Source of the DNA: [Lactobacillus] timonensis | Lineage (GTDB): Bacteria; Bacillota; Bacilli; Lactobacillales; Lactobacillaceae | Direction of reading: 5' to 3' | Assembly (NCBI RefSeq): GCF_900240275.1 | Contig: NZ_LT964761.1 | Span: 1,013,868 to 1,077,867 of the forward strand | Length of the DNA: 64,000 bases | Shown here: piece after piece, positions 5,101 to 61,968 of the stretch | How the letters are laid out: the number at the start of each line of letters is the position of its first letter | Position numbering within the stretch: position 1 is the stretch's first letter | Translations under genes and position numbers: made by a program | Notes under the pieces: generated by a model | What the model saw: the letters and a program-made list of their open reading frames with translations, nothing else | What the model was told of the DNA's origin: nothing | Database searches by the model: none

Positions 5101-9416
<4,316 letters not shown>

Positions 9417-18129: not shown

Positions 18130-19707
18130 TCATTTATTAACTTTAATAACTTCACCATCTTTGAACGTGAATTCCATGTAGCGTTTGAAAATGGTGATTT
18201 TTTCTACTAAGCGACGAACTAGTTGTTCATCAAAGTCTACTAAACCATATTTGTGAAATTCGACCAGCTTATTGATTTCATCAATGCTGTGTAGTTTTGT
18301 TTGCTTGTCAGTTTCACGACTCTGTACTTTTTCTTTTTGTTTCCGCAGGTCCATAATTTGTTGGGTCAGGGCATCGCAATTTTGATGTTGGTTGGCAGCC
18401 TGGATGAGCTGTATTTGCACTTCTTCCAGTTGCTTATCGAGTTGATCAAGGGTTGGACCTTTAGAGTTTTTGATGACCTTCATGATGTTAGCCTTGATCT
18501 GCTTGTCAGCTAACTTATGTCCTTCAATGAGCTGATTAAAAGCTTGTACAGTTGCTTCTTTGAGAAGAGGCTCTTTGACATTTCTAATCATGCATCGCCG
18601 TCCAGATTTACTTCGCTTTATTCGGCTAGCACAGCGCCAGACTGCTACCTTTTCTGGCCAATACCACATATTCCGTTGAAAAATATCGCCGCATTTTCCA
18701 CAGAATACTCTTTGAGAGAAACAATATTTGCCGTTAAGTCGACGGTGCTTACCATTCTTAGTAGTGATCCCGTTTTGCCGTTGTTTGATGAGCTGCTGGA
18801 CTTGCATGAATACCGGCTTGGGAATAATCGCTGGATGGTCGTTTTCCACATAGTATTGGGGCATAATCCCATTATTCTTTACGCGTTTCTTGCTTAGAAA
18901 ATCAACAGTGTAAGTCTTTTGTAATAGAGCATCACCCATGTACTTCTCATTCTTTAGGATTCTTGAAACACCGCTGGATTGCCAGTTCTTTGTTTTACCA
19001 CCGGTTAAAATACCATCAGCTTTGAGTGAATCCGCGATTTGTTTCATACTCATCCCGTTTAGATAGCTATAGAAGATCCGTTTGATGACTTTAGCTTCTG
19101 CCGGTTCAATTACCAGATTACCCTGAGCATCCTTGGTATAACCGAGAAAGTGGTTGTGATTGACGAAGACCTTACCTTGTTGGTAGCGGTACTGAATTCC
19201 CATTTTAACGTTTTGCGATAGGGACTCACTTTCTTGCTGGGCGAGGGAAGCCATGATGGTAATCAGCACTTCACCTTTAGCGTCCATGGTGTTAATGTTC
19301 TCCTTTTCAAAGAAGATTGCCACGTTGATAGCTTTTAAGTCCCGGATATACTTCAGGCAATCGATAGTATTTCGGGCAAACCGACTAATTGATTTAGTAA
19401 CAATCAAGTCAATCTTACCGGCTTTGCAGGCTGCAATCATCTGATTAAATTGTTCCCGCTTCTTAGTGTTAGTCCCTGAAATCCCATCATCGGCGTAGAT
19501 GCCTGCAAACTCCCAGGTTGGCTCTTTTTGAATTAATTCTTTGTAATGGACCACTTGAGTTTCATAAGAACTGGCTTGTTCATCGTAATCCGTTGAAACT
19601 CGACAGTAGGCAGCCACGCGGAGTTGTTCAAATGGTTGCCTGCTTTGTTGCGGTTGAACACTATTGCCCTTTTGCTGATGAGCGGGAATGATTCTCACTT
19701 TACCCAA
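18130..19707 (-). CDS. Large serine recombinase 1
   Basis: A 525-residue large serine recombinase (resolvase/invertase catalytic domain, recombinase domain, zinc ribbon, coiled coil). The catalytic serine is in 'AAYCRVSTDYDEQ'; 'GIYADDGISGTNTKKR' and 'LIVTKSISRFARNT' are further catalytic-domain motifs. The zinc ribbon begins 'VFCGKCGDIFQRN', and a coiled coil follows near 420-480. The start TTG at 19707 has AAGGTGA 6 bases upstream and overlaps the end of recombinase 2 by 8 bases. It is expected to integrate or excise the element, acting alone or together with recombinase 2. It lies at the element's left end, as integrases usually do. Confidence 0.93.
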   Translation of the reverse strand: MGKVRIIPAHQQKGNSVQPQQSRQPFEQLRVAAYCRVSTDYDEQASSYETQVVHYKELIQKEPTWEFAGIYADDGISGTNTKKREQFNQMIAACKAGKIDLIVTKSISRFARNTIDCLKYIRDLKAINVAIFFEKENINTMDAKGEVLITIMASLAQQESESLSQNVKMGIQYRYQQGKVFVNHNHFLGYTKDAQGNLVIEPAEAKVIKRIFYSYLNGMSMKQIADSLKADGILTGGKTKNWQSSGVSRILKNEKYMGDALLQKTYTVDFLSKKRVKNNGIMPQYYVENDHPAIIPKPVFMQVQQLIKQRQNGITTKNGKHRRLNGKYCFSQRVFCGKCGDIFQRNMWYWPEKVAVWRCASRIKRSKSGRRCMIRNVKEPLLKEATVQAFNQLIEGHKLADKQIKANIMKVIKNSKGPTLDQLDKQLEEVQIQLIQAANQHQNCDALTQQIMDLRKQKEKVQSRETDKQTKLHSIDEINKLVEFHKYGLVDFDEQLVRRLVEKITIFKRYMEFTFKDGEVIKVNK

Positions 19708-21361
19708 TTAAATCACCTTCACTTTCGATAATACTGTACAAATATTCTGTTTGTTTGATTGGATCGTTGTAACGTTGTTTGATGATGTCACGATAAAAGT
19801 GTCCATCGATAGTGGCATTTTTGTTTAGCTTTTCAGGTAGCTTTAATCCACATTTCAAGATGAACGTTGCTTTGTTTGAACTGTTAACCACAATCTGTTG
19901 AACAAATTCTTGAAATACACCTTCATCAAACTCAGTAAGCTGTTTCCCTTGATGGCACCAACGTAATAAGGTACGAACATCCTCAAAGTCATTTGCTGAA
20001 TCAGTATTTTGGCCATTAAGCTGTTTAATCTTTTCCTGACATTGGTAAGTGTCTTGCTCGAGTCTAGCGGTTTGGTTGACGTAGATCGCTTTATCTAATA
20101 AACCGGCATGCATCAATTCGGTGAGCGTTTCAGCTTTGTGGTCATTTGCTTTGATTTGCTTAGTTAAAGAAATCAGTTGACCATCGCTGTTGACATTAGC
20201 TTCTTCTTTCAGGCCTTCTAACAATGGCTGAAGTAAGAACTTCTTACTGTAAACTAGCTTATTTATCATATTGCAGAAGGCAGCTTTCAGACTGGCTTCA
20301 GACACTGCCTTAGTTGGACATTGCTGAGCAGATCTTAAATGTTGCTGGCAGGCCCAGTAGATTTTATGTGGCCGCGTTTGTCGTTTGAAAATCGTCCCAC
20401 ATTGACCACAGATGATTTTGCCAGAAAATAGGTAGTGCTGTTGATACTTATGGCTGCCAGTTTTGATATGGCGTTTTTTGACGGCTTCTTTAAGCAGAAC
20501 TTGCACTCTGTTAAAGTTTTCATGGTTAATCAAACTAGGGTGATGATCTTCAATTAGATATTGAGCGAGTTCACCTTGGTTAAAATGACGATGATATTGA
20601 TCGTCACGGTAGGTTTTCTGGCAGAGCATATCACCGGTGTAATTACTGTTTCGCAAGATATTAATTACAGTGTTACTACGCCATTGGCCACCACGTTTTG
20701 TTGATACCTGCTTTTGATTTAATTCTTTAGCAATTTGACTGGCTGATGTTCCACTTAGAAATCGTTGAAAGATTTGTCGTACAGTCTTTGCTTCAGTATG
20801 GTTGATAACTAAGTTGCCATCCTCAATTGAATATCCATAGGGTGCTGAGGATACATGGAATTTGCCACTAGCAAAACGTTTCCTGATTGCCCAGCGTAGA
20901 TTTCCGGCAGTTGAGTGGGATTCATCCTGGGCAATACTGCTAAGAATCGATAGAAATAACTCACTGGCCATTGCTCCAGTATTGATATGCTCTTTCTCAA
21001 AGATAATTGGAATATTCAATTGCTGTAATTCCCGGACAATCTGCAAACAATCAGTTGTATTTCGTGACAAACGGCTAATTGATTTGGTCACCACGAGGTC
21101 AATCCGGTGATTATGACAATCAGTTAGTAATTCTTTTAAGGCGTTCCGCTTGGTCATCTTGGTGCCTGAGATTCCTTCATCATAGTAGATCTTAGCCAGC
21201 TCCCAATTAGGGTGGTTGTTAATGTACTTTTGATAATGGGCACGTTGATTTTCAAGACTTTCTAGTTGTTCAAAATTATCGGTTGAAACTCGACAGTAGG
21301 CTGCGACACGGAGTTGCTTGACATCATGTTGGTAACCTTGAATTTTGGTAATGGTTGACAT
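19700..21361 (-). CDS. Large serine recombinase 2
   Basis: A 553-residue large serine recombinase with the same architecture as its neighbour but clearly diverged. Catalytic motif 'AAYCRVSTDNFEQ' contains the serine nucleophile; 'DEGISGTKMTKRN' and 'LVVTKSISRLSRNTTD' follow; the zinc ribbon is 'IICGQCGTIFKRQ'. ATG at 21361 follows AAGGAGG. It is upstream of recombinase 1 in the same operon. Tandem large serine recombinases occur in several Firmicute elements, where both proteins can be required; which of the two acts at the attachment site here cannot be read from sequence. Confidence 0.93.
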   Translation of the reverse strand: MSTITKIQGYQHDVKQLRVAAYCRVSTDNFEQLESLENQRAHYQKYINNHPNWELAKIYYDEGISGTKMTKRNALKELLTDCHNHRIDLVVTKSISRLSRNTTDCLQIVRELQQLNIPIIFEKEHINTGAMASELFLSILSSIAQDESHSTAGNLRWAIRKRFASGKFHVSSAPYGYSIEDGNLVINHTEAKTVRQIFQRFLSGTSASQIAKELNQKQVSTKRGGQWRSNTVINILRNSNYTGDMLCQKTYRDDQYHRHFNQGELAQYLIEDHHPSLINHENFNRVQVLLKEAVKKRHIKTGSHKYQQHYLFSGKIICGQCGTIFKRQTRPHKIYWACQQHLRSAQQCPTKAVSEASLKAAFCNMINKLVYSKKFLLQPLLEGLKEEANVNSDGQLISLTKQIKANDHKAETLTELMHAGLLDKAIYVNQTARLEQDTYQCQEKIKQLNGQNTDSANDFEDVRTLLRWCHQGKQLTEFDEGVFQEFVQQIVVNSSNKATFILKCGLKLPEKLNKNATIDGHFYRDIIKQRYNDPIKQTEYLYSIIESEGDLIG

Positions 21362-42164: not shown

Positions 42165-43055
42165 ATGGAAAAAGTGACTTATGATCATATGTACTTGTGC
42201 GGATGCGTATTTTTCTTTTTGCTATTACAAGCTGTAAAACCAAATGAAACTGCTAGATCTCATAGGGCCGGAGGTCATGATAAACATTCGGACTCTATCG
42301 TTATGAAGGACCTAATTTACACATTTACAGGTAGAAATGACTTTGGAACTGTTAAGGACACTTCACAATATAAGGAAGGAAAAACTGAGGGGACAGTAAA
42401 TCTTCCTTTCAACGATGGGGCGATAATAAATGCTTTTAAAGCCCTTATTAGTAAAAACCACTTATTGACCTTGTCTAGAATGAAAAAATTTGTGAGCGAG
42501 CATTTAAATCGTGATGTTAGTGAGTGGCTCGTGGGAGCAATACTAGATATCATTAGCTGTGACGATACTATTGCAAATAATTGCCCATTTTATGTGAAAA
42601 GCGACGGCAACGAATTATCTAAGAGTCAGCTGCTGGAAACTAACAAATTTGAGCTAGAACCATTTTTAGTTGGAATACTTCTTTTTATTTTGACGGAAAG
42701 GCGGGGAAAAAATCAGAATGGAAAGGCGACTTTAAATCTGCTGGGTGAGAAAAAAGCAAGAAAACCGAGAAATTTTGAATCTAAGGTTGGCCAATCTAGA
42801 GCTGAGAACATTATTGTTACTGAATGGCATGGAGATGCACACTTAGTTAAAGAAAAAACTAGACAAAATAAAAAAGCCTCCACGGAGGATTCCATGGAAG
42901 CTAATGTAATAAAAATGCAAGCTCAAGATTCACAAAATGATAATTCTAAGGGCGAAAAGAAGCAGACGATGATTAATCATCAAACGAACATAGTCCAAAA
43001 TGGTGACCATAACGTCAACATAACAAATAATGGAACAATGAATCTCAATTTATAA
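42165..43055 (+). CDS. Unknown defence protein with C-terminal RHIM-like motif
   Basis: A 296-residue protein if started at ATG 42165 (moderate site AAGGTAGAG). An alternative ATG at 42303 gives 250 residues and removes a hydrophobic segment (residues 11-24) that may not be real; the conserved-looking part begins 'MKDLIYTFTGRNDFG'. The middle is helical ('LSRMKKFVSEHLNRDVSEWL'). A basic, glutamine/asparagine-rich linker leads to the C-terminal motif QNGDHNVNITNN at 278-289, shared almost exactly with the next protein. The motif resembles RHIM and bacterial amyloid signalling motifs, so self-assembly with the neighbour is proposed. Family not recognised. First gene of the anticodon nuclease/type I restriction operon. 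Confidence 0.6.
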   Translation: MEKVTYDHMYLCGCVFFFLLLQAVKPNETARSHRAGGHDKHSDSIVMKDLIYTFTGRNDFGTVKDTSQYKEGKTEGTVNLPFNDGAIINAFKALISKNHLLTLSRMKKFVSEHLNRDVSEWLVGAILDIISCDDTIANNCPFYVKSDGNELSKSQLLETNKFELEPFLVGILLFILTERRGKNQNGKATLNLLGEKKARKPRNFESKVGQSRAENIIVTEWHGDAHLVKEKTRQNKKASTEDSMEANVIKMQAQDSQNDNSKGEKKQTMINHQTNIVQNGDHNVNITNNGTMNLNL

Positions 43056-43058
43056 GGA

Positions 43059-43718
43059 ATGGAAAAATTGAATAATGATATAAATCGGAATGAAAATGTG
43101 CCATCGAACAAGATAAGCGGCCCATCGATAAAGCAGTTAGAACAAAATGGTGACCATAACGTCAACATTACAAATAATCAAGGTGGAACTGTTAACCTTA
43201 ATTTTAATAATTCTCATTCTATAGGCCATGAAGCTGAAGATTTAATGGCTATCCAAACGTTTAGTAAAGTGTACTATCAATTATTAGTGACGAATGTATT
43301 GGTTGGTGGCTCTGCAATAATTCCCGCTAATCGTTCGCTACTACTTAATATGGTCCCTATTGAAATATTTAGCTCATGTTCGGAGCTTTCAGACCGTGGA
43401 ATAGAAAAGCTAAAAACTATTCCTGCAATTATTTGTCAAAAGAATACAGAATTTTATGGCAAAACAAGTCCATCGCAATCGGCATGGTATTGCCGTATAA
43501 CGGACGTAGTGATAGAAAAAAGTATAATAAGAGTGTTCTTTCATCCATTGGGGGCATTTGAACAAAATAAACTCGGTTACCAGCAAAACGCTTCTTTCTT
43601 TGGTATTAATATAGATTGTATGTTGACAGACTTAAATTTACCTGGATGGTATGTGCACAAGATAAATATTTTTAACGCTTTCGACAAAGCTGGCATATCT
43701 GGAATGCCACAACCCTAA
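43059..43718 (+). CDS. Unknown defence protein with N-terminal RHIM-like motif
   Basis: A 219-residue protein. Residues 29-40 are QNGDHNVNITNN, followed by a short 'GGTVNLNFNN' extension; this is the same motif as at the C-terminus of the preceding protein, and the underlying 36 bases (43143-43178 versus 42996-43031) differ at one position. The rest (about 55-219) is a mixed alpha/beta domain of unknown family ('SAWYCRITDVVIEKSIIRVF'). It starts 3 bases after the preceding gene. N-terminal placement here and C-terminal placement in the neighbour is the arrangement of known amyloid-signalling gene pairs; the function remains inference. Confidence 0.6.
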   Translation: MEKLNNDINRNENVPSNKISGPSIKQLEQNGDHNVNITNNQGGTVNLNFNNSHSIGHEAEDLMAIQTFSKVYYQLLVTNVLVGGSAIIPANRSLLLNMVPIEIFSSCSELSDRGIEKLKTIPAIICQKNTEFYGKTSPSQSAWYCRITDVVIEKSIIRVFFHPLGAFEQNKLGYQQNASFFGINIDCMLTDLNLPGWYVHKINIFNAFDKAGISGMPQP

Positions 43719-43740: not shown

Positions 43741-46032
43741 ATGGAAAAACTAAAATCGGAAATCACAAGTGTAGTTATAAGTGATGCTACCTTTAAGAAA
43801 AACTCACCAATAATTCACCCAACGTTTATTAATTATTTTTTTGGCAACAATGGTACAGGGAAATCTACTATTGCTAAAACTATAAAGTCTGGCGATGGGG
43901 TAATGTTTAAGAATGGCGACAATCTAAATGATTATGAGATTTTACTATACGACCAAAATTATATAGATGAAAACATCAAAGAACATGATGGGCTGCCAGG
44001 GGTCTTCACCGTAAATAAAAAGAATGCAGAGATTGAAAAAGAAATTGCTTCATTATTAGAAAGCGAAGAACAATCTTGGGAAAAAATTAACGAAGCAACT
44101 TCGAGTATAGAAGCATTAGAAAATCGTCAAAATACTTTAGAAGAACAAATTAAATCGAAATGCTGGGAAAAGACAAAATCAATTCGTAAGCAATTTGCTA
44201 AAACACAAAACGGATACCGCAGTTCAAAGAAAAAATTTATTGATGAGGTAAGAAGACATGATGCCAAAGAACATGATATTAAGCAATTGGATACTTTGTA
44301 TTCGATCGCATATTCTAAATCTGCAAGGCAATATCCATTGTTTAACGAGATTCAGTCAATTGCCGTTTTAGATAATATTTCTGGTAGCGGAATATTGTCA
44401 AAGAAAATTGTAAATTCTGCTGACACCGATTTGGCGGTTTTTTTAAAGCAAATAGGTGCTACGGAATGGGCACGACAGGGGCATGATCAATTTCATGAAA
44501 GAACAAATGGTAGATGCCCATATTGTTCTCAATTACTAAACCCAGATTTTGAATTAGAATTTGTAAGAAGTTTTGACGACCAGTATGAAAGTAACAGACA
44601 TGAGCTAAATGAATTTTTGAAAAAATATCGGGATTCCGCAAATAAACTATTTTTGTCTTTGGCACAAAAGCCTGATCCGCTATATCCAGATATTAATATG
44701 GAAGGATATGATGATAAGCTTCGACTGATTAAGTCATTAATTACGTCGAATATTGATAAAATACAATCAAAAATCGATGAGCCCACAAGAGTTGTCGTTT
44801 TAGAAAAAATTGGGCCGTTGCTGGATGAACTTTCACATTTAATAACAAAATTCAATAAATCAATAATTGAGAATAATGAAATAGTAACTTCTCTCAATCA
44901 AAAGCGTGAAGAATGCCAGCAAAAGATTTTCGAATACTTGGCAAACATGTTAAAAATCGATATAGAAGAGTTTGATTCAGCAAATAGAGACATTAATGAA
45001 GAAATTCAAAGGAAAAATAAAGTTAAGCAAGCAGCATCTGATAATATAAATGGCTTTAAAAAGAAAATCAGACAACTTAATAAGCAAACAGTTGAAACTG
45101 AAACAGCAATGAATAATATTAATTTAATGCTTAAAAGTTCGGGATTACAGGGATTCCATCTTATTCCTAAACAGGAAATGTCAGGGACATTAATACGCAA
45201 CTATGAAATTGTAAGAAATGACTCCGGGCATGTTGCTGAAAATCTTAGTGAGGGTGAACGAAACTTTATAGCCTTTTTGTACTTTTTACAGCAGGTGTAT
45301 GGTAATAATAGTACATCTGAAGAGGTTAAAAAGAAGATAATAATCATTGATGATCCAGTAACCAGTATGGATAGTGGAACTATGTTCATTATCGGAGCCG
45401 AGATACGTAAATTAATCGAAATTTGTCGAAATAATGTTGATAATCGGGATAGCTTAGCTTCGGGCAATTTAATTAAACAAATCTTTATTTTTACACATAA
45501 TGCATTCTTTCAAAGAGATATAACTTCTCTTCGAACAAAGGAATATCAGTATGTTTCATTTTATTTGATTACAAAGCATGATAATTGCTCGGAAATTAAG
45601 TTATGTGAAAAAATCAATCCAAATTGTCCTACTCAAAAATTAAATTTTAATCCTGTCACAAATTCCTATACTGCTTTATGGCGGGAGTATAAAGAAACAA
45701 AAAGTTGTCTTTCATTAATGAATATTATTCGACGTATTTTAGAATACTATTTTCTACAAATATGTGGCTATACCGGTGATGATATACGACGAAGAGTTTT
45801 GATAGACCATAGGGATGAATTTGCAGACAAAGATGATAGTACAGGACAATATCAACTGGTATCGTCAATGTTAGCTCATATGTCGGCTGCTAGGTTTGGA
45901 ATTTCTGATGACCTGCTTTTTATTGACGATAATTTGGATGGAAATGTAGACCAGTATAGAAAAAGTTTTAAGTTGATTTTCAAGTGTATGGGGCAAGAAC
46001 AACATTTTAATATGATGGTAGATGAAGCATAG
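43741..46032 (+). CDS. RloC/PrrC-type anticodon nuclease with ABC ATPase
   Basis: A 763-residue AAA_13-family protein. The N-terminal ABC ATPase has Walker A 'FGNNGTGKSTIAK' (about 32-44); long coiled coils flank a CxxC zinc-hook (Cys259-Pro-Tyr-Cys262) as in RloC. Signature 'LSEGERNFIAF' (about 502) and Walker B 'IIIIDDPVTSMDSG' (about 533) follow, with His in 'IFTHNAFFQ'. The C-terminal part contains Arg664/Glu668 in 'IIRRILEYYF' and His713, matching the R-xxx-E...H triad of PrrC-type anticodon nucleases. Known members cut tRNA anticodon loops when a partner type I restriction enzyme is disturbed (PrrC) or on DNA damage (RloC). Here it precedes hsdM, consistent with that guard role. Triad assignment is by eye. 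Confidence 0.8.
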   Translation: MEKLKSEITSVVISDATFKKNSPIIHPTFINYFFGNNGTGKSTIAKTIKSGDGVMFKNGDNLNDYEILLYDQNYIDENIKEHDGLPGVFTVNKKNAEIEKEIASLLESEEQSWEKINEATSSIEALENRQNTLEEQIKSKCWEKTKSIRKQFAKTQNGYRSSKKKFIDEVRRHDAKEHDIKQLDTLYSIAYSKSARQYPLFNEIQSIAVLDNISGSGILSKKIVNSADTDLAVFLKQIGATEWARQGHDQFHERTNGRCPYCSQLLNPDFELEFVRSFDDQYESNRHELNEFLKKYRDSANKLFLSLAQKPDPLYPDINMEGYDDKLRLIKSLITSNIDKIQSKIDEPTRVVVLEKIGPLLDELSHLITKFNKSIIENNEIVTSLNQKREECQQKIFEYLANMLKIDIEEFDSANRDINEEIQRKNKVKQAASDNINGFKKKIRQLNKQTVETETAMNNINLMLKSSGLQGFHLIPKQEMSGTLIRNYEIVRNDSGHVAENLSEGERNFIAFLYFLQQVYGNNSTSEEVKKKIIIIDDPVTSMDSGTMFIIGAEIRKLIEICRNNVDNRDSLASGNLIKQIFIFTHNAFFQRDITSLRTKEYQYVSFYLITKHDNCSEIKLCEKINPNCPTQKLNFNPVTNSYTALWREYKETKSCLSLMNIIRRILEYYFLQICGYTGDDIRRRVLIDHRDEFADKDDSTGQYQLVSSMLAHMSAARFGISDDLLFIDDNLDGNVDQYRKSFKLIFKCMGQEQHFNMMVDEA

Positions 46033-46052: not shown

Positions 46053-48134
46053 ATGGTAAAAATTGATACTTCTTGGGATGAACAGCCAGTAGATATTACT
46101 AGTGAGGCTAACTTTATCTGGTCTATTGCCAATAAGTTACGTGGTACCTACATGCCTGATAAATATGGGGATGTCATTATTCCGATGACTATTATTAGGA
46201 GATTTGAATGTGCCCTAGAGCCAACAAAAGATAAGGTGCTGACGCAATATGAGGCAATGCCAACATATCCAGCTAGAGCGATGTATAAGATTAGTGGATT
46301 TCAGTTCTATAATACTAGTAAATTTGATCTGCAAGAATTATGTAATGATCCTGATAATATTAATTCTAATTTCAAATCATATTTAGCTGGTTTTTCGGCA
46401 GATGTTCAAGAGATCCTCCGAAATTTAGATATTGAAAGCAACATTAATAAAATGGATAAAGGCGGATGCTTATATAGCGTTGTTAAAGCATTCTCTGAGC
46501 TTGATTTAAGTGTTGCTAAATTTGACAGCATCAAAATGGGATACATCTTTGAAAATTTAATTGCCCGTTTTTACCAGAACGTTGACGCTGGGCAATTTTA
46601 CACCGGTCGTGACATTATTCGTCTTTGTGTCTCTTTATTACTTGCAGAGGGTAGTGAAGATATTTTAGAAGATAACAAGGTTGTCACTGTCTTGGACCAA
46701 GCATGTGGGACTGGCGGTATGTTATCAACAGCATATACATATTTGAAGCACTTGAATCCTACAGCTGATGTGCACCTTTTTGGTCAAGAACTAATGGGCC
46801 AGTCATATGCTGTTGGATTAGCCGAAATGTTAATCAAAAATCAAAATATTTCTAATTTTAAGCATGCAGATACCCTAAAGGAAGACTGCTTTCCCGATCA
46901 GAAGATGCGTTTTGTGTTAGAAAATCCTCCATTTGGTACTCCATGGGGTGGTAAAGATGCAAAACAAGGTCAAGAAGAATCAGTTAAAGAAGATTATTTA
47001 AAGGGCGACAGTAGTCGATGGCCAGCGGGGTTACCTAAAACAAATGATGCACAATTACTATTTGTTCAATCTGCTTTGGATAAATTAGATGATAATGGGC
47101 GAGCCGCCATTATTGAAAATGGTTCACCACTTTTTACAGGTAATACAGCATCAGGAGAATCACAGGTTAGACGTTGGTTGTTAGAGAATGATTATCTGGA
47201 TGCAATCGTAGCAATGCCGACTGATCTGTTTTACAACACGGAGTTGGTAACGTATATTTGGATTTTATCTAAAAAGAAAGATGAAAAGCGAAAAGGTAAA
47301 GTTCAATTTATTGATGCAACGAATATCTATGAAAAACTCAGGAAACCTTTGGGAAAGAAAAAGAATGAGTTTTCAAAAGAAAATCGTGAACAAATTACTA
47401 AGTTGTATACGGACTTTGAAGAGAATAATATCTCACAAATTCATGACAATGCTGAATTCATTTATCGTGAATACACAGTTATGCAGCCACTGCAACGTAG
47501 CTATGCTATTACAGAACAACGTATTGAAAAAATGCTCCCTAATTTGAGCAGCTTTTTTGATCCGGTTAAATTTGATGAACTTCAGAATAGTAATGAAAAG
47601 TTATCAGCTCGCGATGTAAAGAAATTAACTAAATTTAATAAAAATAAGCCGGTCTATGATCAACTGCTTTCCACTCTCAGAGATAACATTTCTGAAAAGG
47701 TTTATAAATCACCAGAAGTATTTAAGCCAGTTATTGAAGATCTACTTTCAGATATTGCAGATGATAAACTGATGAAAAAAATAGTTGATGGATTATCACA
47801 AATGGATAAATCAGCTGAAGTTCAAACCGATAAAAAGGGAAATATTATTTATGATAAAGATACAGCCGATTCGGAAATAGTTAATATAAAAACACCAATT
47901 AATCAATATATGGCGGAAGAAGTATTGCCTTTTGTACCGGATGCCAAAGCTTTTTTTGAAGAAAATTTGGGTAAAAAGAAACCCGTTATTAAAACAGGTG
48001 CAGCGATCCCATTTACTAGATACTTCTATAGGTATCAGATGCCCCAGTCGGTAGAGAAACTACAAAATATGATTGATAGTTTGGAACAATCGATTTCTGT
48101 GGAAATGAATAATTTGTTTGATAAAAACAGGTGA
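46053..48134 (+). CDS. hsdM: Type I restriction-modification methyltransferase subunit
   Basis: A 693-residue HsdM. The N-terminal helical domain ('FIWSIANKLRGTYMPDKYGD') is followed by the N6-adenine methyltransferase: SAM motif 'VLDQACGTGGML' (about 215) and catalytic 'ENPPFGTPWG' (about 290). The long C-terminal region with coiled coil contacts HsdS. With HsdS it forms the methyltransferase; with HsdR, the restriction complex. Starts 20 bases after the anticodon nuclease, with GGATGGAG upstream, and overlaps hsdS (ATGA). Confidence 0.95.
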   Translation: MVKIDTSWDEQPVDITSEANFIWSIANKLRGTYMPDKYGDVIIPMTIIRRFECALEPTKDKVLTQYEAMPTYPARAMYKISGFQFYNTSKFDLQELCNDPDNINSNFKSYLAGFSADVQEILRNLDIESNINKMDKGGCLYSVVKAFSELDLSVAKFDSIKMGYIFENLIARFYQNVDAGQFYTGRDIIRLCVSLLLAEGSEDILEDNKVVTVLDQACGTGGMLSTAYTYLKHLNPTADVHLFGQELMGQSYAVGLAEMLIKNQNISNFKHADTLKEDCFPDQKMRFVLENPPFGTPWGGKDAKQGQEESVKEDYLKGDSSRWPAGLPKTNDAQLLFVQSALDKLDDNGRAAIIENGSPLFTGNTASGESQVRRWLLENDYLDAIVAMPTDLFYNTELVTYIWILSKKKDEKRKGKVQFIDATNIYEKLRKPLGKKKNEFSKENREQITKLYTDFEENNISQIHDNAEFIYREYTVMQPLQRSYAITEQRIEKMLPNLSSFFDPVKFDELQNSNEKLSARDVKKLTKFNKNKPVYDQLLSTLRDNISEKVYKSPEVFKPVIEDLLSDIADDKLMKKIVDGLSQMDKSAEVQTDKKGNIIYDKDTADSEIVNIKTPINQYMAEEVLPFVPDAKAFFEENLGKKKPVIKTGAAIPFTRYFYRYQMPQSVEKLQNMIDSLEQSISVEMNNLFDKNR

Positions 48135-49411
48135 TGCAAATGCAAGTAAATAAAGATAGTGGGATAAAATGGGTTGGTGAAATCCCAGATAATTGGGATT
48201 CTGTCCCTATTTATTATGTATCCCAGGAAGTAAGAAAGAAAAATAACAATATTTTTCAAAAAGCAGCACTGAAGTTTACGTATGGGACTATCGTTAGGAA
48301 AAAAAACTTTAGTATTGACGAAGATCCATCTTTAAGAAAAACTATTGAAAATTATAAGGTTGTAAAACCTAAAGATATAGTTATCAATGGATTAAATTTA
48401 AATTTTGACTTTGTTACTCAGCGAGTAGGCTTTGTAACTTCCCCAGGTGCTATTACTTCAGCATATATTGTTATTAGAGCGAAGAATAATATTAATGAGA
48501 AGTATTTATTATATTTGCTAAAAAGTTATGATTCAGTAAAAGCGTTCAACAATATGGGAGGAGGGGTAAGAAGAATACTAAATTTTAATATACTATCAAA
48601 GATAAAGATTCCTTTCCCACCAATGAAGGAGCAAAAGAGAATTGCTGATTTCCTTGATAAGAAATGTGGTCAAATTGACAAACTCTTAGTTCGAATCAAT
48701 GATGAAATTGAACGATTGAAAGTTTATCAAAATAGCTTAATTATAAGGACTGTAACTAAGGGATTAGATCTAAATATTTCCATGAAAGATAGCGGTATAG
48801 AGTGGGTTGGAAGCATTCCTGAATCGTGGGGAGTTGTACCTCTATATAAACTATTTAATGAAAGAAAAAGCAAAAATATTGCTGGACGAGAACAGAATCT
48901 GTTATCTCTAAGTTATGGGAAAATAAAACGAAGGGACATTAATGCTAAGGGAGGTTTGTTACCAGCAAACTTCAATACTTACAATATTGTAGAAGATGGT
49001 GATATTATCATTCGACCGACTGATTTACAAAACGATCAGCATAGCTTAAGAACTGGGATTGTTAAAGAGCATGGAATAATTACTTCTGCTTATATTGATT
49101 TGGCTCCATTGCCAAACACGAATTCAGCTTATTATCACTACCTATTGCATTCTTATGATATTGAAAAAGTGTTTTATAATATGGGGAATGGAGTACGCCA
49201 GGGGCTTAATTACAATGAGTTTTCAAAACTTAAAGTTCTGGTTCCTAGCGATAGAGAAATGTGTAATATTGTTGATTATTTGAATCGAAAAAATAGAATT
49301 TTAGATAGCTTGGTTGAAAAAAAACAACAGCAACTAAATCTCTTAAAGGAATACAAAAATTCACTTATTTATGAATATGTAACGGGCAAGAAGCAAGTAC
49401 CAAAGATGTAG
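48131..49411 (+). CDS. hsdS: Type I restriction specificity subunit
   Basis: A 426-residue HsdS with two target-recognition domains in tandem. Each half begins with the same pattern: 'KDSGIKWVGEIPDNWDSVPI' and 'KDSGIEWVGSIPESWGVVPL', and each recognition domain is followed by a conserved helix ('ADFLDKKCGQIDKLL' and 'VDYLNRKNRILDSLV'), so the bipartite target is probably asymmetric. Complete length. Overlaps the end of hsdM. An intact HsdM-HsdS pair should still methylate even though hsdR is broken. Confidence 0.95.
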   Translation: MMQMQVNKDSGIKWVGEIPDNWDSVPIYYVSQEVRKKNNNIFQKAALKFTYGTIVRKKNFSIDEDPSLRKTIENYKVVKPKDIVINGLNLNFDFVTQRVGFVTSPGAITSAYIVIRAKNNINEKYLLYLLKSYDSVKAFNNMGGGVRRILNFNILSKIKIPFPPMKEQKRIADFLDKKCGQIDKLLVRINDEIERLKVYQNSLIIRTVTKGLDLNISMKDSGIEWVGSIPESWGVVPLYKLFNERKSKNIAGREQNLLSLSYGKIKRRDINAKGGLLPANFNTYNIVEDGDIIIRPTDLQNDQHSLRTGIVKEHGIITSAYIDLAPLPNTNSAYYHYLLHSYDIEKVFYNMGNGVRQGLNYNEFSKLKVLVPSDREMCNIVDYLNRKNRILDSLVEKKQQQLNLLKEYKNSLIYEYVTGKKQVPKM

Positions 49412-49565: not shown

Positions 49566-50619
49566 GGCAAATTGTAAAATTTAAGTTGAACATTTAAGTG
49601 GACAGAAAAACCCATCAAGGTCTTTAATGGTGTTACCACACAATCCATTAGAAAGAAGGACCTTGATGAGCACCACTATTTTATCATTCCAGAACCGTGT
49701 TGTCATTGAAACGCTTCATAGTGAAGGACGTTCCTTGCGATACATCGCTAACTACTTAGGCTTTAGTAAGACCACCATCTTTAACGAACTTCACCGGCTA
49801 AATAGTGAGTACCAGGCTGAACTAGCGCAAACTGACTTTGAACAAAAGGTTAGTCAACGGGGGCGGAAGTCTTCGCTCACTAAAAACCTTAAACACTTGG
49901 TCGAGGAAAAGATTCAAGTCCAGAAGTGGTCCCCTGAACAAGTTGCCCATGTGGTTGGGATTGCCTACAAGACGGTCTATAACTGGATTGATCAAGGATG
50001 GCTTGATGTGCAGTTATCTGATTTGCCTGATCATGGAATACGTCGCCATCGCGCTAAAGAAAAGCGTGGTACGTTCAGTCACGGCCGCTCCATTGAGGAG
50101 CGTTCTCATAAAGTCGAAACTCGCCAGGAATTCGGCCACTTTGAAGCTGATACCGTACTTTATGGCAAACGTAAAGGTCAAGCTGTGGCTACTTTTGTGG
50201 AGCGTAAGAGTCGCCTGACAATTGTTAAACGGCTCCATGGCCGCGACAGTCAGTCCATGACTCAAGCCGTACTTGAACTAGCTAGTCAACTTCAAGACAA
50301 GCTCAAGACGCTGACCGTGGATCATGGGAAAGAGTTCGCTAACTATCAGACAATTGAGCAGCAAACTGGTACTCCGGTTTATTTTGCCCATGCTTATTCA
50401 CCACATGAACGCGGTAGTAATGAGAACCGTAACCGAGTTTTGCGACGGTTTATTCCCAAGGGACAAGCCATTGAAGAACTAAGTGATTACCAACTGGTTC
50501 AAATCAATTGGTATCTGAATTCACGGCCACTTAAATGTCTTAATTGGCATACACCAATCGAGATCTTCTTGCTTAATCTACGTCACTAAATTCGTTCAAG
50601 TTATTTCTTGCAATCTGCC
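49566..50619 (+). mobile_element. IS30-family insertion sequence, copy 1 (inside hsdR)
   Basis: A 1054-base element with 26-base imperfect terminal repeats (left GGCAAATTGTAAAATTT..., right inverse GGCAGATTGCAAGAAAT...). The target duplication is GTTT (49562-49565 and 50620-50623), and excision restores the hsdR frame, so this is a simple and probably recent insertion. Confidence 0.93.
49666..50589 (+). CDS. IS30-family transposase
   Basis: A 307-residue DDE transposase. An N-terminal helix-turn-helix ('LRYIANYLGFSKTTIFNEL') and the catalytic core with 'FGHFEADTVLYGKRKG' (first Asp), 'TLTVDHGKEFANYQ' (second Asp) and 'NRVLRRFIPKG' region (Glu in 'ERGSNENRN') are visible. The ATG at 49666 follows AGAAGGA by 6 bases; a longer frame from 49627 is possible but the second copy of the element supports 307 residues. 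Confidence 0.93.
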   Translation: MSTTILSFQNRVVIETLHSEGRSLRYIANYLGFSKTTIFNELHRLNSEYQAELAQTDFEQKVSQRGRKSSLTKNLKHLVEEKIQVQKWSPEQVAHVVGIAYKTVYNWIDQGWLDVQLSDLPDHGIRRHRAKEKRGTFSHGRSIEERSHKVETRQEFGHFEADTVLYGKRKGQAVATFVERKSRLTIVKRLHGRDSQSMTQAVLELASQLQDKLKTLTVDHGKEFANYQTIEQQTGTPVYFAHAYSPHERGSNENRNRVLRRFIPKGQAIEELSDYQLVQINWYLNSRPLKCLNWHTPIEIFLLNLRH

Positions 50620-53496
50620 GTTTTTAAAGGATACTCAACCAAAAAAATTAGAAGAATTAACTAAACAATTTAAGGAAGATACTGAAGAGACAATCATTAA
50701 CACCATTAATAAATTTATCATTAGTAAGAAAGGAAGCCTACTTTCTGCGTTAAAACACGGTGTTGATGTTAACAATCAACATTTAACCTTGCTATATGGG
50801 AAACCAGCTACTGACTTTAATCCTGAACTCTCAAAGTTGTATTCAGAAAATATTTTTTCTGTAATGCAAGAGGTATATGCGGATAAAGAGAATAAAGAGC
50901 GAATTGATCTCGTAATCTTTATAAATGGATTTGCTGTAATTAGCTTCGAGCTTAAAAGCAATAGCCAAGGACAAAATTACGAGAATGCAATCAAACAATA
51001 TCGGACATCGCGTAATCCTAAAGATCGTTTATTTCTTTTTAAAGCAGGATGTTTAGTAAACTTTGCTATGGATACTGAAGAAGTTTATATGACTACCAAG
51101 TTAGCAAAAGAGAAGACGTTCTTTATGCCTTTCAACATGGGAAAAGGGGAAGGTATAAATTCTGGTGCAGGGAATCCACACTTTCCTGATAAATATAGTG
51201 TTTCTTATATGTGGGAGGATATTCTAAGAAAAGAAACTTTAGTTGAATTGATTACCAAATTTATCTTTATTGAGGCTAAGGAAAGTAAAGATCCGCTGAC
51301 TGGGAAGAGAAGGGTAAAGCAACAATTAATTTTCCCAAGATATCATCAGTTAGATGTGATTCGTAAAACTTTAGCTGATTTGAAGATCAATAAGACATCA
51401 CAAAATTATTTAATTCAGCACTCTGCTGGATCAGGAAAAACTAACTCTATTGCATGGCTTGCACATAGACTAGCTAGTCTTCATGACGATGATAATCAAA
51501 TTATTTTTAATAATGTCATCATTATGACGGACAGGGTGGTCGTGGATCGACAGCTACAAAAAGCAATAATGGGTATTGAACATAAAGCTGGCCTTATTCG
51601 TGTTATGGATGATAAATGTACGTCTGAGGATCTTAAGCTGGCATTAGAAAGCAACACTAAAATTGTGGTTACTACGATCCAAAAATTTCCATACGTTGTT
51701 GATTTGATTAAGGATGATAGTAATTCGTCTGATGTTTCACTTAAAAATAAGAAATTTGCCGTGATTATTGATGAAGCACACTCGTCAACTGCTGGTAAAG
51801 ATATGATGGCTGTGACTGAAGCTTTATCATCATCGGATAAATTCTATGAACAGGACATTCAAGATCAATTAGTACAAGAAATTGAAAGCTCTGGAAAGCA
51901 AAAGAATGTAAGTATGTTTGCTTTTACAGCAACACCTAAGCCAACTACCTTACGCCTCTTTGGACGCTTAGATAAACATGGTAATTATCGAGCATTCCAT
52001 TTGTATAGTATGAAACAGGCTATTGAAGAAGGATTTATTCTTGATGTTTTAGCTAATTACACGACCTATCAAACATACTATGAACTTAATAAAGAGATTG
52101 CTGATGATCCAGAATTAAAGACGGCTGATGCAAAACGACAAATAGCTCAGCAAATAGATTTAGATGATCAGAATATTTCTCAACGAACAAAAATTATTAT
52201 TGACCATTTCAGAGAACATGTGATGTCAGAATTAGGTAATCAAGCAAAAGCAATGGTTATTATGTCATCTCGTAAGGCAGCGGTTAAGTATCGACAAGCA
52301 TTTGAAAATTATATTAACGAACATCATTATGATGATATGGGGATGCTTGTTGCCTTTTCTGGCAACGTTAACTCAGATGATGATAACAAGGAATATACTG
52401 AGGCTTCAATGAATGGTTTACCAGAAGACCGTACAGCTAAAGAGTTTAATAAACCTGGATATCGTTTCTTACTAGTAGCTAATAAATATCAAGTTGGATT
52501 TGACCAACCTAAGTTATCTGCTATGTACGTCATGAAAAAATTACGTGGAGTCAATGCAGTACAAACACTTTCTCGCTTAAATCGTATCTGCCCACCATAT
52601 GAAAAGACTCCATTTGTATTGGATTTTGTTAATGACTATAAGGATATTGAGGCCGCCTTTGCTCCTTATTACACGACCACTTTATTAGCAGATACGGTTA
52701 ATCCACAATTGGTTTATAACCTAGTAGAAAAAATTGATGGGTTCTATATAATTGATCCGCAAAATGTGGAGGGTGCAAACAACATTATTCATAAAGCAAA
52801 AATTCAAAGTCGAGATAAGAAGAATCTTAATTTCTACTTTGGCGCTACAGAAAAGAAAATAAAAGAATTAGACGAAAATACCCAACGAGAAGTTTTGACT
52901 ACGTTAAAGCATTTTGTGCGCTGCTATGAGTTTCTTTTGCAAGTATCTAGCCTTAAAGACGAAGAACTGCAGAAACTATATAATTATGTATCTTATTTGA
53001 TGAAGTACGTAAATATTAGCCGTCCAGGACAGGGTTATGATCTGACTGGAAAAATAAAAGCCAGCAAGTTTACCCAGAAACAGACGGGCCAACATATATC
53101 AGGTACGAAACGGTCAAATCCAGTAGTAAAGTTACCAATGGCTGATGATGTTGAACTTAGTGAAGCAAAGAAGGAAAAATTATCCAAAATTATCGAAGAA
53201 ATTAACCAAACAACTGGGTCTAATTTTGACAAGGATGTAGCTGTTAAATCGATGCTTCAAATTAGGGACCTAATGATGAAGTCAAATAACTTAAGGAGCA
53301 GTGCAAAAAATAACAATGAGCATGACTTTGAACTATCATACTTTGATCATATTGACGATATGTTGATTGAGGGTCTTGAACATAATAAAGACTTTTTCAC
53401 TTTGCTACTCAACAACGATGATATTAAGAAAGAGGTTTTGGGAACTTTTGCAGGGGAAATTTATAAATCATTGCGTGAAAGTGAAGTGAAACAGTA

Positions 53497-54099
53497 GTGA
53501 AGAAAGATGTGCTTTCAATTAAGAATAGGGAAGATTTAGTTGAAGTAATTGCTCCCGACATAAAAGCTATAGATGAAGCAATTAAGTCTAGCGATGAAGA
53601 AAAAATGAAAAATATACATTTAAAGATTGATGGCAAGTACTCAACATATATACCAGGATTTGGGAAAAGTATGTATGGGTACAGTAGTGCTGACGGCTTC
53701 GCCTATAACTATATGGGAAAGGAATCATATCTTCACAACTTACGTATCATGAAAGGAAGACTAGAAGGGTACCTTTGCGGTTTTCCAACTCCTCAAAATT
53801 CAAAGATATCACAGGATATTAGTGTGAGTGTACCTGTTTCAAATTCCAATGACATTAATATAAATCTTTCATTTAAGGATGCTAGGAAGCAAATAGAGGA
53901 AATGCCAGGGTTGAATGAGGCCGAGACCGAAGAACTGAAGACAAAAATTAATGAGCTAGAACAAATAAATAATGAGAAAATATCAAAAAAGAAAAAATGG
54001 GAAAAGGTAAAACCTATCATTTCTTTTGTATTGGATAAAGGGGCAGATGTTGCAATTACAATTATGGGGTTAATACTTCAAATGAAACTTGGCATTTAA
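53497..54099 (+). CDS. Unknown protein at the end of the type I restriction operon
   Basis: A 200-residue protein starting with GTG overlapping the hsdR stop (TAGTG). The N-terminal half is charged. The middle contains 'SNSNDININLSFKDARKQI', and the C-terminal 70 residues are helical with a terminal amphipathic helix ('KGADVAITIMGLILQMKL'). I recall similar C-terminal helical modules in other small proteins of bacterial defence loci, without a defined function. No catalytic motif is visible. Position suggests a helper or effector of the restriction/anticodon-nuclease locus. Confidence 0.55.
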   Translation: MKKDVLSIKNREDLVEVIAPDIKAIDEAIKSSDEEKMKNIHLKIDGKYSTYIPGFGKSMYGYSSADGFAYNYMGKESYLHNLRIMKGRLEGYLCGFPTPQNSKISQDISVSVPVSNSNDININLSFKDARKQIEEMPGLNEAETEELKTKINELEQINNEKISKKKKWEKVKPIISFVLDKGADVAITIMGLILQMKLGI

Positions 54100-60913: not shown

Positions 60914-61968
60914 GGCAGATTGTAAAATTTAAGTTGAACATTTAAGTGGACAGAAAAACCCATCAAGGTCTTTAATGGTGTTACCACAACATTCCATTAG
61001 AAAGAAGGGCCTTAATGGGCACCACTATTTTATCATTCCAGAACCGCGTTGTCATTGAAACGCTTCATAATGAAGGACGTTCCTTACGATACATCGCTAA
61101 TTACTTAGGCTTTAGTAAGACTACCATCTTTAACGAACTTCACCGGCTAAATAGTGGGTATCAAGCTGAACTAGCGCAAACTGACTTTGAACGAAAGGTT
61201 AGTCAACGGGGGCGAAAGTCTTCGCTTACTAAAAGCCTTAAACACTTGATCGAGGAAAAGATTCAAGTCCAGAAGTGGTCCCCTGAACAAGTTGCCCATG
61301 TAGTTGGGATTGCCTACAAGACGGTCTATAACTGGATTGATCAAGGATGGCTTGATGTACAGTTACCCGATTTGCCTGATCATGGAATTCGTCGTCATCG
61401 TGCTAAAGAAAAGCGTGGTACGTTCAGTCACGGCCGCTCCATTGAGGAGCGTTCTCATAAAGTCGAAACTCGCCAGGAATTCGGCCACTTTGAAGCTGAT
61501 ACCGTACTTTCTGGCAAGCGTAAAGGTCAAGCTGTGGCTACTTTTGTGGAGCGTAAGAGTCGCCTGACAATTGTTAAACGGCTCCATGGTCGCGACAGTC
61601 AGTCCATGACTCAAGCCGTACTTGAACTAGCTAGTCAACTTCAAGACAAGCTCAAGACGCTTACCGTAGATCATGGGAAAGAGTTCGCTAACTACCAGGC
61701 AATTGAACGGCAAACTGGTACTCCGGTTTATTTTGCCCATGCTTATTCACCACATGAACGCGGTAGTAATGAGAACCGTAACCGAGTTTTGCGACGGTTT
61801 ATTCCCAAGGGACAAGCCATTGAAGAACTAAGTGATTACCAACTGGTTCAAATCAATTGGTATCTGAATTCACGGCCACTTAAATGTCTTAATTGGCATA
61901 CACCAATCGAGATCTTCTTGCTTAATCTACGTCACTAAATTCGTTCAAGTTATTTCTTGCAATCTGCC
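60914..61968 (+). mobile_element. IS30-family insertion sequence, copy 2
   Basis: A 1055-base near-identical sibling of the element in hsdR, in the same orientation, with both 26-base termini intact (GGCAGATTG... and ...CAATCTGCC). The flanks CTAC and ATAT do not form a target duplication, unlike copy 1. Confidence 0.93.
61015..61938 (+). CDS. IS30-family transposase, copy 2
   Basis: 307 residues, with only scattered differences from the transposase at 49666 (for example 'FGHFEADTVLSGKRKG' here). The DDE residues and helix-turn-helix are intact. ATG at 61015 follows AGAAGG. Confidence 0.93.
   Translation: MGTTILSFQNRVVIETLHNEGRSLRYIANYLGFSKTTIFNELHRLNSGYQAELAQTDFERKVSQRGRKSSLTKSLKHLIEEKIQVQKWSPEQVAHVVGIAYKTVYNWIDQGWLDVQLPDLPDHGIRRHRAKEKRGTFSHGRSIEERSHKVETRQEFGHFEADTVLSGKRKGQAVATFVERKSRLTIVKRLHGRDSQSMTQAVLELASQLQDKLKTLTVDHGKEFANYQAIERQTGTPVYFAHAYSPHERGSNENRNRVLRRFIPKGQAIEELSDYQLVQINWYLNSRPLKCLNWHTPIEIFLLNLRH

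Follow-up and report, generated by a model that had tools for sequence, protein, structure and literature searches.

Bacterial amyloid signalling sequences (BASS) have reportedly been described by Dyrka et al. (2020) in NLR/Bell gene pairs. Two articles likewise place BASS in NLR/Bell gene pairs (PMC7889193, PMC8086366), and one of them, a review from 2021 on amyloid signalling, raises the question of whether bacterial pathways that work without NLRs contain motifs of this kind (PMC7889193). Here, a pair of adjacent genes with a shared motif was analysed in a stretch of 64,000 nucleotides of [Lactobacillus] timonensis (contig NZ_LT964761.1, positions 1,013,868 to 1,077,867), referred to as the window. 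The first protein, P1, carried the motif QNGDHNVNITNN at its C-terminus, and the second, P2, carried it at its N-terminus. The analysis of relatives revealed that the two segments were matched within each pair while differing between pairs. We interpret P1 and P2 as a receptor-effector pair of homotypic and probably cross-beta type, encoded in a restriction island within a prophage, with a probability of about 0.55.

The locus was similar to BASS pairs in that the genes were neighbouring or overlapping, the motif was C-terminal in one protein and N-terminal in the next, many motif families occurred, and the effector-like partner was helical. Relatives L040 and L087 also had a NACHT receptor, and L063 had an NB-ARC domain. 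It differed in that P2 of the window was small and lacked an NTPase domain, so it was no NLR receptor, in that the setting was a restriction island and no Bell domain was shown in P1, and in that the hosts were mostly Bacillota and phages, whereas those of BASS are filamentous actinobacteria and cyanobacteria. The HET-S/NWD2 system has the same layout, with the effector motif C-terminal and the receptor motif N-terminal in the adjoining gene, but the window contained no NLR. Like the RHIM, fungal PP and BASS3 motifs, the segment was short, rich in N, Q and G, and began with Q-x-G. The tetrad [IV]-Q-[IVL]-G, which marks the RHIM, was searched as [IVLT]Q[IVLT]G: of 42 pairs, none had it in both proteins and 9 had it in one, and the window had it in neither protein. 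The original prediction, which had likened the motif to those of RHIM, PP and BASS, thus held for the C-/N-terminal layout and for the pair, which was kept in relatives, while membership of RHIM was rejected. Among the literature matches listed, judged by titles and abstract openings and with most subscription journals outside the scope, no published account of the pair was found. We class it as working like a BASS pair, new in that the window member lacks both the defining NLR and the RHIM tetrad.

The two genes were separated by 3 nucleotides in the window (Table 1). The residue positions given for the motif in the original prediction were reproduced, and a recount confirmed that 35 of its 36 nucleotides were the same in both genes. 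Over a slightly longer stretch (42991-43031 and 43138-43178), 38 of 41 nucleotides were the same (93%). The P1 tail and P2 head gave a local alignment score of 84, and the best of 500 shuffled P2 heads reached 59, which ruled out a chance or compositional repeat as the source of the shared motif.

Table 1. Positions of the gene pair, its motif copies and the downstream genes in the window
Feature	Position	Strand	Description
P1	42165..43055	+	296 aa; residues ~1-240 helical, then an unstructured linker and the motif at the C-terminus
P2	43059..43718	+	219 aa; N-terminal motif, then ~150-residue mixed alpha/beta domain
Motif copy 1	42996..43031	+	P1 residues 278-289, QNGDHNVNITNN, then GTMNLNL up to the stop
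Motif copy 2	43143..43178	+	P2 residues 29-40, QNGDHNVNITNN, then QGGTVNLNFNN
RloC/PrrC-like ABC ATPase (gene 3)	43741..46032	+	Pfam AAA_13 (E 3.1e-106), PADLOC PDC-S06 (E 9.2e-195); zinc-hook CPYC; candidate tRNase
Type I restriction methyltransferase (HsdM)	46053..48134	+	Profile match
Type I specificity subunit (HsdS)	48131..49411	+	Profile match
IS30-type transposase open reading frame	49627-50589		Between HsdS and the HsdR-like frame; by inspection
HsdR-like open reading frame	50789..53497	+	902 aa; by inspection; start looks truncated

Relatives were sought by the P1 sequence alone, without use of P2, and the scan patterns lay in the P1 core. With the genome of the window counted each time, P1 homologues were found in 7 genomes out of 395 at the level of the order, in 2 out of 398 for the class and in 13 out of 398 for the phylum, the last including many weak partial matches. 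Further P1 loci came from 1 Lactococcus plasmid, 8 phage records, 52 sites in genome contigs and 24 in viral contigs. The titled records were mostly from Bacillota, many of them from gut and rumen, and also from phages; the few labelled as Prevotella, Desulfobulbaceae or Nanoarchaeia metagenome assemblies may reflect misbinning. P2 of the window aligned along its length with most relatives at 14-26% identity, and L064 bridged the gap at 34%. In L004, the locus of the nearest P2 relative (75%), P1 (L004:4169-5060) was interrupted into frames of 198 and 85 residues, the second of which kept the motif. In L100:1501-3057, an open reading frame of 518 residues coupled the P1 domain with a C-terminal region that was unrelated and showed no recognisable motif.

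A total of 64 usable P1-P2 pairs was obtained, and since these included copies (L009/L059/L090; L044/L088), a set of 42 was formed by removing P1 cores more than 90% identical. Before the count of 64, 19 of the 76 loci of L021-L096 were dropped owing to a P1 that was fused or long (L030, L062, L064, L065 with 861 aa, L066, L068, L069, and L070), a position at a contig end or a fragmentary sequence (L061, L067, L072, L083, L092, and L093), an interrupted P1 frame (L063, L095, and L096), or a P2 start beyond the set distance limit (L043 and L084). From L001-L020, only L002, L006, L008, L009, L016, and L019 were used; the others were copies of used loci (L001, L003, L005, L007, L012, L014, L015, and L018), had an interrupted P1 (L004, L010, and L011) or a cut P2 (L017), or were unusable (L013 and L020). 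The later loci L097-L099 stood outside the statistics, and the weak matches L102-L108 were left out.

The sequences of P1 tail and P2 head varied widely between loci and agreed within them, as in L002 (QYANNIYNIEHVENLN and QNADRIYNIEQANNVN), L049 (NQYGEKNIHIDRVDTLN and NQYGEKNVHVDHADNIH), L057 (NFNAPIHTFNNQVGTVVNNY and NFNAPIDTFVAHTDAVQNNY), L038 (VHYGTGDIYSDIETLTIN and VHTGSGDIYSNIGSVTVN), and L050 (EQSGNGTQIGYVEHF and EQSGEGEQIGYVEHY). With motif classes drawn by eye after the sequences had been seen, tail and head were assigned to the same class in every one of the 64 pairs and thus of the 42 non-redundant pairs, two of the latter being classed as "other" on both sides. The original prediction would have been contradicted by homologues with an unconserved motif in one protein only; instead, both partners carried matching motifs. 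Scores that used no classes showed the same, with a mean of 59.6 for cognate and 31.6 for non-cognate pairings of the 42 pairs (0 of 20,000 permutations). When the pairs were clustered by core identity, the result was again 0 of 20,000 with 25 clusters (70%) and with 10 (50%); at 40%, where only 4 clusters remained, it was 826 of 20,000. No other head outscored the cognate one in 21/42 pairs, and in 15/25, 9/10, and 3/4 at the 70%, 50%, and 40% levels, respectively. The cognate pairing scored better than the swapped one in 830 of 861 locus pairs, with 11 ties and 20 worse, and the partial Mantel correlation given P1 core identity was 0.80 (0/5000). In shuffle tests, the cognate score was never reached in 32 of the 42 pairs and was significant at 1% or better in 39; L045, L054, and L071 were weak. 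Outside the statistics, L043, L084, L004, L010, and L063 looked matched by eye, as did L097 and L098 (near kin of L052/L054) and L099, for which 6, 8, and 6 of 42 other heads, respectively, outscored the cognate one. The classes required at least 15 changes on a quick tree of the 42 P1 cores, in which several branches were long, including that of the window, and two of the long ones were joined.

In some relatives, P2 was replaced. The second protein of L039-L041, L047, L085, and L087 resembled the motif-bearing NACHT protein of L040, and scans of those of L040 and L087, in which the motif was N-terminal, found Pfam NACHT and SNaCT14. The second protein of L063 combined the motif, a P2 domain and NB-ARC. 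P1 was fused directly to NACHT in L030 and L062 and, by inspection, also in L069 and L070, and no such motif was seen by eye in the linkers of these four. P1 and P2 were themselves fused in L064, L066, and L068, the last two of which retained an N/Y/G-rich linker. The motif-bearing NACHT partners and the fusions indicate that the link to P1 can run through the motif or through a fusion, and that either P2 or an NLR can serve as the partner. A third small gene with the motif of P1 and the NACHT protein (scores of 51-61) was present at L085:8189-8713, where it encoded a DUF6650 protein, and at L087:8689-9210, which suggests a three-protein hub.

Comparison of closely related operons showed where the matched segments had changed. 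In L037 and L035, the P1 core aligned at 81% at the DNA level, and a second aligned block (78.5%) began near P2 residue 144 and extended through the ATPase gene; the P1 tail, the P2 head and most of P2, which lie between the two blocks, were not alignable. The same pattern was present in L029/L034, L031/L035, and L037/L034, making four of the five locus pairs compared; the fifth, L033/L037, aligned in scattered pieces only. The P1 cores of L029 and L034 were 87% the same, the class differed on both sides, and the P2 cores were 54% alike. Judged from these alignments, the P1 tail and its partner P2 appear to travel together as a block between related operons.

Neither P1 nor P2 of the window had a significant match in Pfam, NCBIfam, PADLOC or PHROGs, and the profile scans found no NTPase family in P2. 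The AlphaFold2 (AF2) model of P1 was helical (mean predicted local distance difference test score, pLDDT, 79.2), and fold comparison gave no match. Its hydropathy was borderline for a hydrophobic transmembrane helix, and a transmembrane pore was rejected as a demonstrated function of P1. In the AF2 model of P2 (mean pLDDT 83.8), the core had a weak fold resemblance to the YTH, EVE and DrmA N-terminal domains, although no sequence match to YTH, EVE, PUA-like or DrmA proteins was found. The view that neither main domain is recognisable therefore stood at the level of sequence families and needed qualifying for the fold of P2.

The genes downstream of the pair were counted in 51 loci (33 non-redundant) where P2 was separate and the downstream sequence covered 3.2 kb or more. 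An RloC-like ATPase gene, in pieces in some loci, followed within 4 kb in 46 of the 51 (29/33 non-redundant). It was absent within this distance in L002, L045, L050, L052, and L091, and L060 had none ahead of its restriction helicase in a stretch of 2.4 kb, so a constant partnership with the pair was rejected. The NACHT or NB-ARC variants L030, L040, L041, L063, L085, and L087 also lacked an RloC-like gene in the stretch covered. A helix-turn-helix (HTH) gene of ~65 residues lay within 4 kb in 44 of 51 loci (27/33 non-redundant), and the window had none; that of L019 matched Pfam HTH_17 and also PADLOC mad1 (E 2.9e-10). Of the 51 loci, 17 had genes similar to the Hsd genes of the window within 4 kb. 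In nine loci without them, one later gene each was scanned, which yielded SNF2/ResIII helicases (L052, L085, and L036), an HsdR-like protein (L088), a C5 methylase (L094), PvuII (L015), an EVE protein (L038) and a match to an MmeI methylase that stayed below the threshold (L025); the gene scanned in L049 encoded a base-excision HhH-GPD protein unrelated to restriction. The EVE-domain protein of L038 (Pfam E 1.5e-5), a member of a modified-base reader family, followed the P1-P2-ATPase operon at 6222-7841, and Javan105 had methyltransferase genes ~5 kb further on, on the opposite strand.

Homotypic assembly best accounts for similar segments that match within pairs, change together, recur in a third protein and yield to fusion. 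P2, with its N-terminal motif and YTH/EVE-like domain, would be the receptor side, and P1, with its helical domain and C-terminal motif, the effector side; these roles are inferred because the C-/N-terminal layout and the NLR in sister operons correspond to the layout of BASS and HET-S. The original prediction of a sensor-effector pair was strengthened by those relatives in which a NACHT receptor takes the place of P2, and our assignment of the two roles is provisional. Upon triggering, P2 would cluster and its motif would nucleate a beta-rich polymer, onto which the matching motif of P1 would be recruited, thereby activating P1, as an NLR does with a BASS effector and NWD2 with HET-S. P2 probably responds to nucleic acid that is foreign or abnormally modified, or to a state of the adjoining restriction enzyme, as suggested by its reader-like fold and the restriction neighbours. 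Alongside the RloC/PrrC-like protein, the pair would probably stop the growth of the infected cell or kill it. More tentatively, and at less than even odds, the family may form a non-NLR amyloid-type signalosome of Bacillota and their prophages, in which a modified-nucleic-acid reader, P2, seeds P1 as its dedicated effector by way of a cross-beta motif that diversifies rapidly, is matched in each operon, is exchanged between operons as a tail-plus-receptor cassette and is used in guarding a restriction-modification island, with NACHT and the reader as interchangeable inputs. The P1 family offers a concrete set of pairs without an NLR that can be tested next to NLR-bearing relatives of the same P1, and it provides numerous interaction motifs that are matched by nature and possibly orthogonal. 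It would connect restriction with a layer of signalling described for filamentous bacteria and fungi in the 2021 review (PMC7889193).

The repeat could instead be a recent DNA duplication or a functionless low-complexity linker, and the nearly identical DNA copies in the window would suit this explanation. There, 13 of 17 identical residues shared a codon, compared with 8.3 expected, and a run of 26 nucleotides was identical, which suggests recent copying between the P1 and P2 genes at this locus; such local copying may have refreshed the motif. Across the 42 pairs, identical residues in the matched segments used the same codon in 209 of 501 cases, compared with 219.6 expected from the genes' own usage, and in 196 of 484 (211.2 expected) when the window was excluded. 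Codon sharing was thus no higher than chance, which indicates that selection on the protein keeps the motifs alike, and duplication was rejected as the general cause of matching. Since the cognate scores also exceeded the shuffles and the matching persisted through the class changes, we regard this explanation as very improbable.

A different assembly is conceivable, in which the motif is a docking strand and P1 and P2 form a constitutive heteromer by specific beta-strand pairing without polymerisation, for example to keep P1 silent in the manner of an antitoxin or as a fixed complex with the restriction enzyme. The tests of pair matching demand specific recognition rather than amyloid, the covalent fusions (L030, L062, L064, L066, and L068) would suit a simple tether, and the close or overlapping gene ends would suit stoichiometric partners. 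However, the motifs resemble rather than complement each other, which is the usual picture in homotypic stacking, a NACHT receptor with the motif occupies the place of P2, and the third motif-bearing gene of L085 and L087 fits the hub of a polymer more readily than a dimer; a docking strand therefore appears rather unlikely. We also find it doubtful that the pair serves chiefly to regulate the restriction system or the RloC-like ATPase, with P2 reading methylation or the enzyme and assembly switching the ATPase or tRNase on. The frequent proximity of the RloC-like gene and the weak likeness of P2 to modified-base readers fit such a role, and a linked type I enzyme is described as keeping PrrC silent (PMC2610378). 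Against it stand the loci and the NACHT/NB-ARC variants without this gene, and the P1-NACHT fusions, which suggest that P1 can act without the ATPase. The homotypic receptor-effector pair remains our preferred interpretation.

Gene 3 of the window shared with the PrrC/RloC anticodon nucleases an ABC ATPase, the zinc-hook CX2C (present in 7 of 7 gene 3 proteins compared) and adjoining type I restriction genes, and differed from them in the two extra genes, P1 and P2, in front. The pattern Arg-X3-Glu-X36-52-His is given as the RloC catalytic pattern in one source (PMC2610378). Within the last 160 residues, it was found in only two of the seven proteins, those of the window and L016, and a firm nuclease assignment was rejected. 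The pair had been placed before an anticodon nuclease and a type I restriction system; both sets of genes did adjoin it, and nuclease activity was not assured.

Upstream of the pair, inspection of the minus strand revealed phage replication, packaging and lysis genes together with two serine-recombinase-like open reading frames, and the locus was therefore considered to be a prophage. The two recombinase-like frames (525 and 553 aa) adjoined each other at 18130-21361, at one prophage end. The IMG/VR viral contig L003 held P2 at 100%. A second IS30-type frame, very similar to that in Table 1, was located at 61015-61938. The HsdR-like frame was followed at 53497-54099 by a frame of 200 residues with the N-rich stretch SVSVPVSNSNDININLSF, then a charged region and a hydrophobic end, which is possibly a further defence-island protein.
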